From: Candidatus Pyrohabitans sp. JdFR-17
GTDB lineage: Archaea > Hydrothermarchaeota > Hydrothermarchaeia > Hydrothermarchaeales > BMS3B
DNA length: 38,080 nt
Assembly: GCA_002011115.2 (NCBI GenBank)
Contig: MTME02000095.1
Location: 1-38,080, forward strand
Direction: 5' to 3'
Within the stretch, counting starts at the first letter, position 1. The number at the start of each line of letters is the position of its first letter. The position numbers and the translations under genes were made by a program. This document shows, piece by piece, positions 3,497-31,319 of the stretch. A model generated the notes under the pieces. The model was given only the letters and a program-made list of their open reading frames with translations, did no database searches and was not told the origin of the DNA.

Positions 3497-3607
3497 TCAT
3501 TTACCTCTTGGATTTTCCGGAGATAGAAGATTTATCTACTACTTTTTATTTTATCATAACAAATATTTATATCATTGGGAGAAAGTGCATAACTGCAGGG
3601 TGAAAAC

Positions 3608-4426: not shown

Positions 4427-5140
4427 ATGGGCATTAAGAGGGTCAGAACCTTTGTGCGCGGCTTGGACGAGAAAATGGAGGGAGGAATACCAAAGGGAAG
4501 CGTAAACCTTATCTGTGGCACCGCAGGCACAATGAAGTCCTCGCTTGCATACAGTATCCTTTACCACAACGCACTGCGTGCAGGAATACCGGGGCTTTAC
4601 GTAACACTGGAGCAGGACCCTAGGAGCCTGCTCAGGCACATGGAAAAACTGAACATGGCTAAGGAGGGCGCCGTTGACATAGTGTGCTTCAATGACATTA
4701 AAGAAAAAGTCAAAGAGAGAAGGGTGGAAAACTGGATCCAGAAGCTATCTAGCTTCCTCAAGGAGATGAAGGATGAGAAGAAGTATGAGCTTCTGGTAAT
4801 CGACTCGCTGAACGCGCTCTACTCCCTCACCACCATAAAAGACGTTCGAGCGGAGATATACTTCTTCTTCAAATCCCTCAGCGACCTGGGCTTTACATCC
4901 TTCCTGATCTCCGAGATGCCCCCTGAGGGCGGACGATACGGTGAGTACGGCGTGGAGGAATTTCTCAGCGATGGCATAATCCATCTGCTCTTCCAGCGCA
5001 GGGGGGGCATACTTACCTCGCTGGAGCGCTACATAGGCATAGTGAAAATGCGTGCCACAAACCACGACACCCACTACTTCCCTCTGCTATACCAGAACGA
5101 CAGGTTCACCATCTACACCAAAGAAGACCTTGAGCTGTGA
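4427..5140 (+). CDS. KaiC/RAD55-like RecA-superfamily ATPase
   Basis: GLDEKMEGGIPKGSVNLICGTAGTMKSSLAYSILY (Walker A-like), LLVIDSLNALYS (Walker B). Confidence 0.88.
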   Translation: MGIKRVRTFVRGLDEKMEGGIPKGSVNLICGTAGTMKSSLAYSILYHNALRAGIPGLYVTLEQDPRSLLRHMEKLNMAKEGAVDIVCFNDIKEKVKERRVENWIQKLSSFLKEMKDEKKYELLVIDSLNALYSLTTIKDVRAEIYFFFKSLSDLGFTSFLISEMPPEGGRYGEYGVEEFLSDGIIHLLFQRRGGILTSLERYIGIVKMRATNHDTHYFPLLYQNDRFTIYTKEDLEL

Positions 5141-17118: not shown

Positions 17119-17164
17119 GATACGGTTGCAGGATGTCTCGCCAATTCCATAAGAACTGGTTTCG

Positions 17165-17314
17165 GTTTCCCTCTCAAACGGTCGGGAAACAATAGGAACC
17201 CGCTGGTGGTTACCCGGAAGCTTCGCTTCCGGCGTGACGTAGTTCCTATAACAACGGAAAGGTTGGAGGTGAAATGCCCGAGAAAAAGGAGAGGAGGAGG
17301 TGGGGCATTTCACC
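17165..17314 (+). other. Candidate structured leader/non-coding RNA element (copy 1)
   Basis: Nested perfect inverted repeats: GTTTCCC 17165-17171/GGGAAAC 17184-17190; ATAGGAAC 17192-17199/GTTCCTAT 17242-17249; CCGGAAGC 17214-17221/GCTTCCGG 17225-17232; then TAACAACGGAAAGGTTGGAGGTGAAA (17249-17274), then GGTGAAATGCCC 17268-17279/GGGCATTTCACC 17303-17314. Confidence 0.6.
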
Positions 17315-17402
17315 TTACCCAGTAATATTGCACATACCGAAGGTAAACATTATTGTTGATCTATTGCTTTAAGGTAAACGTTGACGTTTGCAGGTGTGGT
17401 GA

Positions 17403-28024: not shown

Positions 28025-28611
28025 GTTTTCACCTTTTCTCTGAGCTTTTTGTACTCTTCAGGTGTGTTTATGTTGAGAAAGCTTAGCATCTCTATGCCTT
28101 CTCTGCTGAGCTTTTCCTCGGGTACAAAATTAACATTGAGCAGGGTTAGAAGTGAATTCATACTTTTCAGCTCTTTTTTACTCTTCGCCAAAAGGGCTCG
28201 CTTATAATAAACGGCATGCAGGGGTTCAGCGAAGCCTCTGACAACAGGCACTGCTGCGTCGTAGCCTTTAACCTCTCGCATAAGTAAGTAGTATAATCCT
28301 GGTTCGAGCAGAGGGGAATCCACAGGCATTACAGCGAGATACTCATAGCTCGCGTGCTTGGCAGCTGAGATCAGGGCATAAGCTGGGCCTTTTCCAGGTT
28401 TTTCATCCAGCACTACTTTGAAATTACACTCAGCGCTTATCTGCGATGCCTGCTCCTCAGTTGCCAGGGAAACAATAACCTCTTGAGCAAAGCGTGTGGC
28501 GACCTTGAGTATGCGTTCAATAAAACTTTCTCCATCGAGTGTTAAAAATCTTTTATCTTTTCCCATCCTTCTGCTTTGCCCGCCAGCGAATATAACCGCG
28601 GTGCACAGCAT
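28015..28611 (-). CDS. mobA: Molybdenum cofactor guanylyltransferase MobA
   Basis: MLCTAVIFAGGQSRRMGKDKRFLTLDGESFIERIL...VLDEKPGKGPAYALISAAKHASYEYLAVMPVDSPLLEP. Start uncertain (28611 to 28644). Confidence 0.93.
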   Translation of the reverse strand: MLCTAVIFAGGQSRRMGKDKRFLTLDGESFIERILKVATRFAQEVIVSLATEEQASQISAECNFKVVLDEKPGKGPAYALISAAKHASYEYLAVMPVDSPLLEPGLYYLLMREVKGYDAAVPVVRGFAEPLHAVYYKRALLAKSKKELKSMNSLLTLLNVNFVPEEKLSREGIEMLSFLNINTPEEYKKLREKVKTCR

Positions 28612-28695
28612 TTTTTCATTACGGTTGTGCATTTTCATGCCCAATTCCGCCCTGAATCATTTTTTCATTACGGTTGTGCATTTTTATGCCCAATT
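28609..28695. repeat. 49-bp tandem duplication (1.8 copies) over the mobA start region
   Basis: CATTTTTTCATTACGGTTGTGCATTTTCATGCCCAATT (28609-28646) and CATTTTTTCATTACGGTTGTGCATTTTTATGCCCAATT (28658-28695): 37/38 identical, offset 49. Confidence 0.95.
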
Positions 28696-28745
28696 TTGCA
28701 TCAGATAAAAAAGTATATATATGGTGAAGTAATTAAAATTTAAAA

Positions 28746-28821
28746 GGTTACAGCGAAGTCGCGTGGGGTAGTTTTTACAAGCCCACGCAGTATGGTAACA
28801 ACGGAAAGGTTGGAGGTGAAA
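28746..28821 (+). other. Candidate structured leader RNA element (copy 2) in the 5' region of the molybdopterin oxidoreductase
   Basis: GGTTAC 28746-28751 pairing with GTAAC 28795-28799; GCGTGGG 28761-28767/CCCACGC 28782-28788; then TAACAACGGAAAGGTTGGAGGTGAAA (28796-28821), identical to 17249-17274. Confidence 0.6.
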
Positions 28822-28823
28822 AA

Positions 28824-31319
28824 GTGGTAGTATTGAGGAGAGTGTCGGAGTCCGTAAAGGACTACGATACAATCAGGTACACCACCTGCGACAACATGTG
28901 CGAAAGCGGTTGCGGGATGAAGGTGTACCTCAAGGATGGCAGAATAGTCGACATCTGGGGTGACGACGAGCATCCACAGAACTACGGCTCTCTATGCCCG
29001 AAGGGAACGGCTAACTACCAGCATGCATATAATCCCCTGCGCGCCAAATATCCTGTTATTAGAGAGGACAACGTAAACGGCAAGTTCAGGCGCGTCACCT
29101 GGGACGAAGCCCTCGACTTCGTCGCAGACCGCCTGAAGTACATCCGTGAGAAGTGGGGTGCCCACACCGTAGCATGCCACCGCACTGGAAGGAGCAGCTA
29201 CGGTAACAAGCTAGGTGGCTCAAGATTCCTTGCCATGTACGGTACCCCGAACATCTACGGCCAGGGTCCGCTTTGCTGTGAGTCACCTGGGGCGAGGGGT
29301 CAGTATGTATTTGGCGCCAAGGAGTTCCTGCGCCTGATGAACCCCTGCCAGGATGCAATGAACAGCGATACCATATTCATCTCCGGTGCCAACGCTGCGG
29401 CGCTGGAAGTAATAACCATGAAGTGGTTCATCGAGGCCCAGGATCGCAACGGCGCAAAGATGATAGTCATAGACCCGCGCTTCAATGCGACAATGGCCAA
29501 GGCAGACCTTGCCCTGCGACTGCGCCCGACCACCGACGCCTATCTGGCGAATGCGCTTGCCCACGTGCTTATCTATGAGATAGATGGAATTGACAAGGAC
29601 TTTATAGCTCGCTGGACTGTGGGCTTTGAGAAGTACAAGGAGCTGGTGAAGGACTATACACCCGAGAAGGCGGAGAACATCACCTGGGTTCCTGCGGAGG
29701 ACATACGCAAGGCTGCAGAGTGGATAGCCTACCCGAGGAGGACTCACTTCACTGGTTGCTTAGGTACTGCGCAGCAGTACAATGCTGGTAATGGTAATGC
29801 TGCCTACCAGATACTCGTCGCCATAACCGGTAACGTGGGCGTTAAGGGAGGAGGCTGGAACTGGCTCCACAACTGTCGCCCAGTGCTCAGCGCTGGTAAG
29901 GACCTGAAGGAGTACGTTGCAAAGATAAAGGAGCCCCAGCTTGCTGACAAGATAATTCCGTGGGGCGACACATCAAGCGCGTGCACAATTAACCCCGGCT
30001 ATACCGGCAAGCCCTACCCGGTCAAGGGTCTCATCTGGAATGGAAATCACATAGTGCAGTGGCCCAACAACAACAAGGTTCGCGAGTACATGAAGAACCT
30101 GTACTGCGGTGTACACCTGAGCTTCCATCCCAACGAGACCATGAGCTGGATGCACGCCGCATTCCCGATAACCAGCTTCTTCGAGCATGAAGGCGTTGTC
30201 CACCACGGCAACAACCGCCACGTGCAGTGGCACAACCAGATTATAGAGCGCCAGTGGGAGTGTCGCGCCGACATAGACTTCTGGGCAGGTCTGGCCAAGC
30301 GCTTCGAGTTCGCCGAGGCGTATTATGCTCCTGATGGCAAGAGCTGGTGGGCGAAGAAGGACGTGTTCGGCAACCCCTTGCCCGAGGATCCCAAGTATCC
30401 GGGCACCACCCACGAGATCGACGAGCGCGTATGCCAGAACTGGTTCCACTCCCAGGAGAGCTTCGTCGCCGGCATAACCGTGGAGCTCATGGATCCCGAG
30501 ATGTCCCCGAAGGGCGGTGTGATGTGGCCTGCCGAGACCAAGGACGAGGCCATGATGTACTCCGACCCCGAGGCGACAATACGCGGTGCCCAGTGGATAA
30601 TGTACAAGGAGGGTGTGAACTACCCAGGTACAGACAAGCGCTTCCCGACACCGAGCGGCAAGGTGGAGATATACTCCCAGGCTCTGGAGCAGATTGGCTG
30701 GTATCCACTGCCCATACACATCGAGCCCAGCAATGCTCCAGTTGCGAGGCCTGACCTGTGGGAGAAGTATCCGCTCATCCTGTGCACTGGTCGCCTTGTG
30801 GCGCACTTCCACGAGATGGGCCACTGGTGGCCGTGGATGGTTGAGCTTGAGCCTCACAGGTTCATAAACATCCACACCGAGCTTGCGAAGGCTCTCGGAA
30901 TACGCGACGGTGACACTGTGGTGTGCGAGAACGACTACGGCAAGGTGATCGGCCCCGCCTGGGTCAACGAGATGGTTGATGAGGGCGAGGTATGGGGTCC
31001 AGAAGGTTTCGACAAGTATCAGCCCTTCTATCCGTACAGCAACATTAATGAACTCGTGGACGACACTGTGAAGGACCCATTCTACACCCAGGCTCAGTAC
31101 AAGTGCAACCTGGTCAGAGTGTACCGTCTGGGTGACGATCCAGACAAGGCTGTGGAGAAGACCAAGGAGTTCCTTGCCAAGGTCAAGCGCACACCCAAGG
31201 ACTACCTCGACCCAGAGAAGGAGCCCACTGTCAACCTGGGTACCTACACCAGGTTCATCCAGAAGGGCAGCGGCATCTACTATGTAGGCGTGCCGCGTGA
31301 GAAGTGGGAGACCAAGTGA
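28824..31319 (+). CDS. Molybdopterin oxidoreductase, DMSO reductase superfamily, catalytic subunit with N-terminal Fe-S motif
   Basis: TCDNMCESGCGMKVYLKDGRIVDIWGDDEHPQNYGSLCPKG...VIDPRFNATMAKADLALRLRPTTDAYLANAL...RFPTPSGKVEIYSQALEQIGWYPLP...YPLILCTGR. No obvious Tat signal. Confidence 0.93.
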   Translation: MVVLRRVSESVKDYDTIRYTTCDNMCESGCGMKVYLKDGRIVDIWGDDEHPQNYGSLCPKGTANYQHAYNPLRAKYPVIREDNVNGKFRRVTWDEALDFVADRLKYIREKWGAHTVACHRTGRSSYGNKLGGSRFLAMYGTPNIYGQGPLCCESPGARGQYVFGAKEFLRLMNPCQDAMNSDTIFISGANAAALEVITMKWFIEAQDRNGAKMIVIDPRFNATMAKADLALRLRPTTDAYLANALAHVLIYEIDGIDKDFIARWTVGFEKYKELVKDYTPEKAENITWVPAEDIRKAAEWIAYPRRTHFTGCLGTAQQYNAGNGNAAYQILVAITGNVGVKGGGWNWLHNCRPVLSAGKDLKEYVAKIKEPQLADKIIPWGDTSSACTINPGYTGKPYPVKGLIWNGNHIVQWPNNNKVREYMKNLYCGVHLSFHPNETMSWMHAAFPITSFFEHEGVVHHGNNRHVQWHNQIIERQWECRADIDFWAGLAKRFEFAEAYYAPDGKSWWAKKDVFGNPLPEDPKYPGTTHEIDERVCQNWFHSQESFVAGITVELMDPEMSPKGGVMWPAETKDEAMMYSDPEATIRGAQWIMYKEGVNYPGTDKRFPTPSGKVEIYSQALEQIGWYPLPIHIEPSNAPVARPDLWEKYPLILCTGRLVAHFHEMGHWWPWMVELEPHRFINIHTELAKALGIRDGDTVVCENDYGKVIGPAWVNEMVDEGEVWGPEGFDKYQPFYPYSNINELVDDTVKDPFYTQAQYKCNLVRVYRLGDDPDKAVEKTKEFLAKVKRTPKDYLDPEKEPTVNLGTYTRFIQKGSGIYYVGVPREKWETK

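Follow-up and report, generated by a model that had tools for sequence, protein, structure and literature searches.

In the window, by which we mean the whole 38,080-nucleotide stretch of DNA from Candidatus Pyrohabitans sp. JdFR-17 that was analyzed, an intergenic region of 284 bp (17119-17402) contains several perfect stems followed by a 26-mer, TAACAACGGAAAGGTTGGAGGTGAAA, that is found again in the leader of a molybdopterin oxidoreductase gene. The initial annotation had regarded stems and 26-mer as one structured RNA, either a cis-acting regulator or a small RNA, with a loose resemblance to the bacterial Moco RNA. Which parts of this region are conserved, from which strand would an RNA be made and what might such an RNA do to the oxidoreductase gene?

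Results

Origin of the stems upstream of the 26-mer

The gap and every stem listed for it by the initial annotation are present; the upstream genes, named guaAB there, actually encode CTP synthase and the PP-loop subunit of GMP synthase. When 17120-17402 was used for a DNA search, matches split at 17249, and the left part matched scattered repeats in the window's own genome (G000) and in its nearest relative (G001); these repeats read TATGGTTGCAGGAGGTCTCGC...TAGGAACCCGCTGGTGGTTCCTAT and enclose a palindrome, TACCCGGAAGCTTCGCTTCCGGCGTGACG. At this site in G001, only about 16 bp separate the motif from the guaA stop codon, and there is no insert. With multiple intergenic copies and an empty site in a relative, as for REP- or MITE-like sequences, the dense stems at 17119-17248 are, by their distribution, an interspersed palindromic repeat inserted in the window's genome, outside the conserved element. 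Because scattered copies exist and G001 has no insert, the hairpins of the initial annotation are attributed to this repeat and not to a conserved RNA, and stems and 26-mer do not form a single element. In two other places (L012 in G001:C2 and L021 in G000:C68) the repeat adjoins the upstream side of a putative SRP RNA gene (GGGCTAGGCCGGGGGGTTCGGCGTCCCC), which presumably encodes SRP RNA, and a palindrome related to the repeat adjoins a tRNA gene (L026).

The 26-mer and its two sites

The 26-mer occupies positions 17249-17274 and recurs exactly, as had been claimed, at 28796-28821. It was found in none of 100 dinucleotide shuffles with 3 mismatches allowed, and the whole 1.62-Mb genome has just these two sites for its 23-nt core when up to 3 mismatches are permitted. 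The assignment of the second copy to the oxidoreductase leader was also correct, as this copy overlies the SD of the gene (28824-31319, plus strand; start codon GTG at 28824), whose 831-aa product has Molybdopterin, Molydop_binding and Fe4S4 domains (Pfam PF00384, PF01568, PF04879). A moeA gene is located near the oxidoreductase gene in the window. Immediately 5' of the oxidoreductase promoter there is a 49-bp direct repeat (CATTTTTTCATTACGGTTGTGCATTTT...; 28609-28707), and the 5' leader (28740-28795) has a stem of its own, GCGTGGG/CCCACGC. An unrelated stem, TGGTTGAC/GTCGACCA, is found at a similar place in the leader of genus g2; oxidoreductase leaders in other families of the order are shorter and no such stem was noticed in them.

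At the first site, the conserved part extends from 17249 to 17391, where the 26-mer is joined by an inverted repeat and by a promoter-like block whose distance is fixed. The inverted repeat (AGGTGAAATGCCC at 17267-17279 and GGGCATTTCACCT at 17303-17315 on the plus strand) is perfect over 13 bp, shows few changes across all members and has a variable loop length; it is followed by a spacer and then by AAACATTATTRT. The block at 17343-17360, which reads ATCAACAATAATGTTTAC on the minus strand, was delimited from alignments A2/A3 and from distances, and is dyad-like as well as promoter-like. A second dyad, GTAAACGTTGACGTTTGC, is situated at 17374-17391. The interval chosen by the initial annotation contains the 26-mer tail, but inverted repeat and block (17267-17360) had been missed and lie partly outside of it. 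The small CAAC/GTTG hairpin proposed within the 26-mer can form in the window, but it is absent from genus g3 and from the extra copies in g2, and was rejected as the shared unit.

Distribution of the element and of its proposed target

The element is kept in nine genomes belonging to three genera (g1, g2 and g3), with 80-98% identity to the window in g1 and more distant sequences in g2 and g3. It is intergenic, and its neighbors differ between genera: guaA and an endonuclease-IV-like gene in g1, a thiL-like gene and tfx in g2, a response regulator gene and tfx in g3. In the window, element (17249-17325) and target (28796-28821) are found on the same contig, whereas each of the other eight genomes has them on different contigs. 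The 18-mer GRAAGGTTGGAGGTGAAA marks both loci; nine of the ten family genomes have one pair of element and target each, and the same 18-mer written backwards gave 0 matches. The tenth genome (G008) has neither element nor oxidoreductase. Extra matches to the 18-mer came from a paralogous element in g2, from one chance coding match in G006 and, as third match in G009, from a second contig end bearing the same target start. Both loci share genus-specific states, which are GGAAAGG in g1, TGAAAGG in g2 and GGGAAGG in g3, and TGAAAGG is also found in both extra g2 copies.

The initial annotation had suggested a covariance model and a search of related genomes as a check. Such a model recovered the elements of all nine genomes. 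It also revealed one additional copy in each of the two g2 genomes (E 3e-8 and 2e-7), and four g1 genomes were found to have a diverged copy with a different stem and the same spacing (E 0.02-0.08). Covariation inside the hairpin is weak, with 1 pair that has changed on both sides, and an RNA helix is unproven by pair statistics alone. The second g2 copies, L134 (G005:C47:4120-4208) and L135 (G007:C11:11338-11426), would be aimed at the same oxidoreductase site; on the plus strand they are preceded by a 12-bp perfect hairpin, CAGAAAGGGGTT/AACCCCTTTCTG, which could be the end of the predicted minus-strand transcript. The diverged g1 element (L136-L139; G001:C5:17117-17210, G002:C36, G003:C118 and G004:C96) has a perfect 11-bp stem, GAACCCATGAG/CTCATGGGTTC, with a block AATAATGTTT at 37 nt, and is flanked by methionine-synthase-like and polysaccharide-deacetylase-like genes, as annotated from sequence only. 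A search for a target of this diverged element gave no convincing site.

Covariance model R1 found no element in other families of the phylum, and those sites of TTGGAGGTGAAA that were inspected outside the family were plain SDs or coding sequence without hairpin. Among the 395 genomes searched in all, those outside the phylum gave a single isolated 17-mer match (G280). When the conserved block served as search pattern, most other matches had no hairpin. In a distant genome from another order of the phylum (G021), GGAAAGGTTGGAGGTG is present in the same oxidoreductase leader with no detectable element, which suggests that part of the motif predates the predicted sRNA or can exist without it. 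Upstream in this leader (G021:C149:25240-25310; L113), a hairpin, GCCCAACCAATGGGC, holds CCAACC, which is complementary to GGTTGG, and a cis pairing of CCAACC with GGTTGG might possibly lead to two mutually exclusive folds.

Complementarity to the oxidoreductase mRNA

An RNA read from the minus strand of the element, with TTTCACCTCCAACCTTTC..., is complementary to the oxidoreductase ribosome-binding site. Perfect contiguous complementarity extends over 24-26 nt in g1 and over 19 nt in g2 and g3 (nine genomes), and cofolding gains 15-38 kcal/mol when compared to the separate folds. For the mRNAs of g1 and g3, the best pairing is that with elements from the same genus, and each g2 or g3 element in turn pairs best with the mRNA of its own genus. 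The exception is given by the g2 mRNAs, which pair more strongly with the g1 element (-41 kcal/mol) than with g2 elements (-33 to -35 kcal/mol), because the g2 match is shorter. A distinct intergenic locus, together with complementarity that is maintained, with matched changes between genera, is what a trans-encoded antisense sRNA displays. We consider it likely, with a probability of roughly two in three, that the locus is the gene of a trans-acting antisense sRNA, transcribed from the minus strand from about 17325 to 17249 (ends approximate), that represses the oxidoreductase. In this predicted RNA a 5' hairpin would be followed by an antisense tail. The 5' arm of the hairpin (17303-17315; AGGTGAAATGCCC on the minus strand) would mimic the SD of the target, and the 3' arm (17267-17279; GGGCATTTCACCT on the minus strand) overlaps the proposed antisense segment 5'-TTTCACCTCCAACCTTTCCGTTGTTA-3' (17249-17274, minus strand), an exact 26-nt match to the complement of the target. 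The claim that this region is regulatory or a small RNA and not random DNA is upheld by recurrence in nine genomes with matched changes; its stems and its interpretation as a cis-riboswitch are not.

Strand of the predicted RNA

When ten sequences were compared, each had the AATAATGTTTA block 37-40 nt before the hairpin, as read on the minus strand; in the diverged g1 copy the distance is 37 nt. A TATA-like form of this block is confined to g2 and the diverged g1 copies, and all other members have ACAATAATG at this place. No conserved sequence is found upstream on the plus strand; this flank is guaA in G001 and the interspersed repeat in G000, and in g2 and g3 it is unrelated DNA. In g2, both neighbors are on the strand opposite to the motif, and because of this orientation on both sides a leader role for the plus strand would not be possible there. 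Wobble pairs gave mixed evidence that is supportive rather than decisive for the minus strand. Variants in the core helix of G005, G006, G009 and G007c form G.U pairs on the minus strand and A.C mismatches on the plus strand, whereas the extra g2 copies show the opposite trend at two distal positions and the outer extension GGUU/AAUC of some genomes favors the plus strand. The most likely RNA is encoded on the strand opposite to the one that had been folded in the initial annotation. No conserved terminator was seen for the predicted sRNA, and the interspersed repeat at 17119-17248 may end its transcript in the window's genome.

Transcription of the plus strand would have a different consequence. 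An RNA that copies the leader motif could act as a decoy for 30S subunits or for an RNA-binding protein that regulates the oxidoreductase leader, in the way in which CsrB titrates CsrA. The motif is indeed identical in sense orientation, a hairpin comes after it on the plus strand also, GGUU/AAUC has its G.U pairs only on that strand, and the leader motif is old, as it is seen in G021. Such a decoy is nevertheless improbable, since it comes without a conserved promoter upstream on the plus strand, several variants of the core helix are broken (A.C) on the plus strand and kept (G.U) on the minus strand, and the block at 37-40 nt would have no obvious role for a plus-strand transcript.

Molybdenum and tungsten genes near the element

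In g2 the element clusters with modA and modB, both of which exceed the NCBIfam cut-offs, and also with an ABC ATPase gene, a PTPS-like gene and tfx. The dyad GTNAAC-N6-GTTNAC beside the element is found again upstream of modA (G005) and of the PTPS-like gene; in locus L050 its sites at 1040-1057, 3587-3604 and 4828-4845 lie before the PTPS-like gene, modA and the element. There are 4 matches in L050, one of them intragenic, where 0.26 would be expected, and none of 300 shuffles reached 3 matches; as the element itself had supplied the motif and mononucleotide shuffles were used, this excess is suggestive. The two dyads at the element (17343-17360 and 17374-17391 in the window) are 31, 33, 42 or 43 bp apart, depending on the genus, which is near 3 or 4 helical turns. 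The dyad is a possible operator of a molybdenum/tungsten regulator, and the second dyad might be an operator of the sRNA gene, being of the class shared with modA and the PTPS-like gene in g2.

In Methanothermobacter, Tfx is reported to bind on the downstream side of the fmdECB promoter and to be repressed at the level of its own transcription by tungstate (PMC3087415). By analogy, the shared 18-26 bp could be a DNA operator, a site for a Tfx-type factor downstream of a promoter. This possibility, a serious alternative though we consider it slightly more doubtful than a decoy, draws on the tfx gene that adjoins the element in g2 and g3 and on the reported mode of binding at fmdECB (PMC3087415). 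As in Methanothermobacter, tfx adjoins molybdenum functions and the site lies downstream of a molybdoenzyme promoter (PMC3087415). However, the Tfx orthologue (81% identity, g2 vs g3) is absent from all five g1 genomes, where both copies of the motif are unchanged, so that the site is kept in a genus without its cognate Tfx and an explanation at the RNA level fits better. The best Tfx proteins of g1 are paralogues of just 39-47% identity; binding by another Tfx paralogue would still be conceivable. In addition, the shared segment coincides with the SD and has a fixed orientation, the spacing of the inverted repeat is variable without helical phase, and a second half-site is missing from the oxidoreductase copy.

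A structured leader or riboswitch for Moco, Wco or another ligand at both places, as proposed in the initial annotation, is very unlikely. The locus near molybdenum genes and the oxidoreductase leader, which has upstream stems of its own in every genus of the family, would agree with it, and the tie to Moco/Wco genes recalls the bacterial Moco RNA motif (PMC2408646). Yet the Rfam search of the window gave 0 matches at gathering score, and the Moco RNA covariance model, with which the suggested relationship was compared, matched neither copy of the 26-mer at E<=5. Unlike a Moco RNA, the g2 element precedes no co-oriented gene; furthermore, the CAAC/GTTG hairpin is lost in g3 and the stems of the annotated interval belong to the interspersed repeat. 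A minus-strand match to Gut-1 (17302-17371) reached 25.6 bits, where the gathering score is 50, and was treated as a chance match.

Least probable of all is an ordinary translation signal or small ORF, a strong SD with a 32-codon leader peptide (17274-17369), as TTGGAGGTGAAA does recur before unrelated start codons and the short ORF is open in several genomes, but the shared segment runs 7-14 nt past the SD core, the GRAAGG-containing 18-mer is confined to these two loci, and the conservation of the DNA is not matched by the ORF, which has 2 codons in g2 and changes frame among the g1 genomes. A small protein at 17274-17369 was ruled out for the same lack of a kept frame, and a shared coding sequence upstream of the oxidoreductase start was ruled out by a stop codon in g2 and a different frame in g3.

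Discussion

According to our preferred explanation, an antisense sRNA, the locus would give rise to a hairpin RNA of about 75 nt with a tail antisense to the oxidoreductase ribosome-binding site. The 3' arm of the hairpin and the single-stranded tail, CCAACCUUUCCGUUGUUA, would together form a perfect complement of 28796-28821 in the mRNA. The tail, whose CCAACC is largely outside the hairpin, could serve as a toehold on GAAAGGUUGG of the mRNA, and the mRNA would subsequently invade and open the hairpin, the 5' arm of which is a copy of the target SD. Once opened, the sRNA would cover GGAGGUGA, translation would be blocked and the enzyme would no longer be made. Dyad operators in the presumed promoter region of the sRNA, of a kind also present at modA in the sister genus, suggest how it might be governed. 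Because the element of the sister genus adjoins modABC and tfx and shares its dyad with modA, we infer that the sRNA is probably under the control of a molybdenum/tungsten-responsive factor, and it may spare metal by shutting down a dispensable Mo/W enzyme. As a wider and rather tentative proposal, more doubtful than not, a single regulator recognizing GTNAAC-N6-GTTNAC might control both molybdate uptake, through modA, and a toehold-hairpin sRNA that silences the oxidoreductase, and the sRNA scaffold, defined as promoter block, fixed spacing and perfect-arm hairpin, might have been copied with the GAACCCATGAG/CTCATGGGTTC arm in four g1 genomes in order to act on other mRNAs.

To our knowledge, few trans-acting sRNAs of archaea have a defined target. 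The SD is a known site of action for archaeal sRNAs, and sRNA162 of Methanosarcina mazei is an established case of a trans-encoded RNA that masks a ribosome-binding site (PMC3510493). Like sRNA162, sRNA154 and sRNA41 of M. mazei (PMC3510493, PMC5867862), the candidate is intergenic and an unpaired or loop part of it would cover the ribosome-binding site of a distant mRNA. In contrast to these, pairing is perfect over 19-26 nt, a single target is predicted and the 5' arm of the candidate hairpin copies the target SD. RyhB of Escherichia coli is a metal-sparing sRNA. The logic proposed here, in which a metal-responsive regulator acts through an sRNA that lowers a metal-using enzyme, resembles that of Staphylococcus IsrR (PMC9410917). 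Unlike IsrR and RyhB, the present case would involve Mo or W as the metal, an archaeal host and a long perfect pairing, and the regulatory half of the comparison is the part that we propose by analogy.

Target, pairing site, genus-matched changes and the link to molybdate uptake were all obtained from sequence, which makes the proposal directly testable. If it is true, the family would possess an archaeal antisense RNA with an unusually long perfect pairing in trans and a hairpin that mimics its own target, and this RNA might be a molybdenum/tungsten counterpart of the iron-sparing RNAs.
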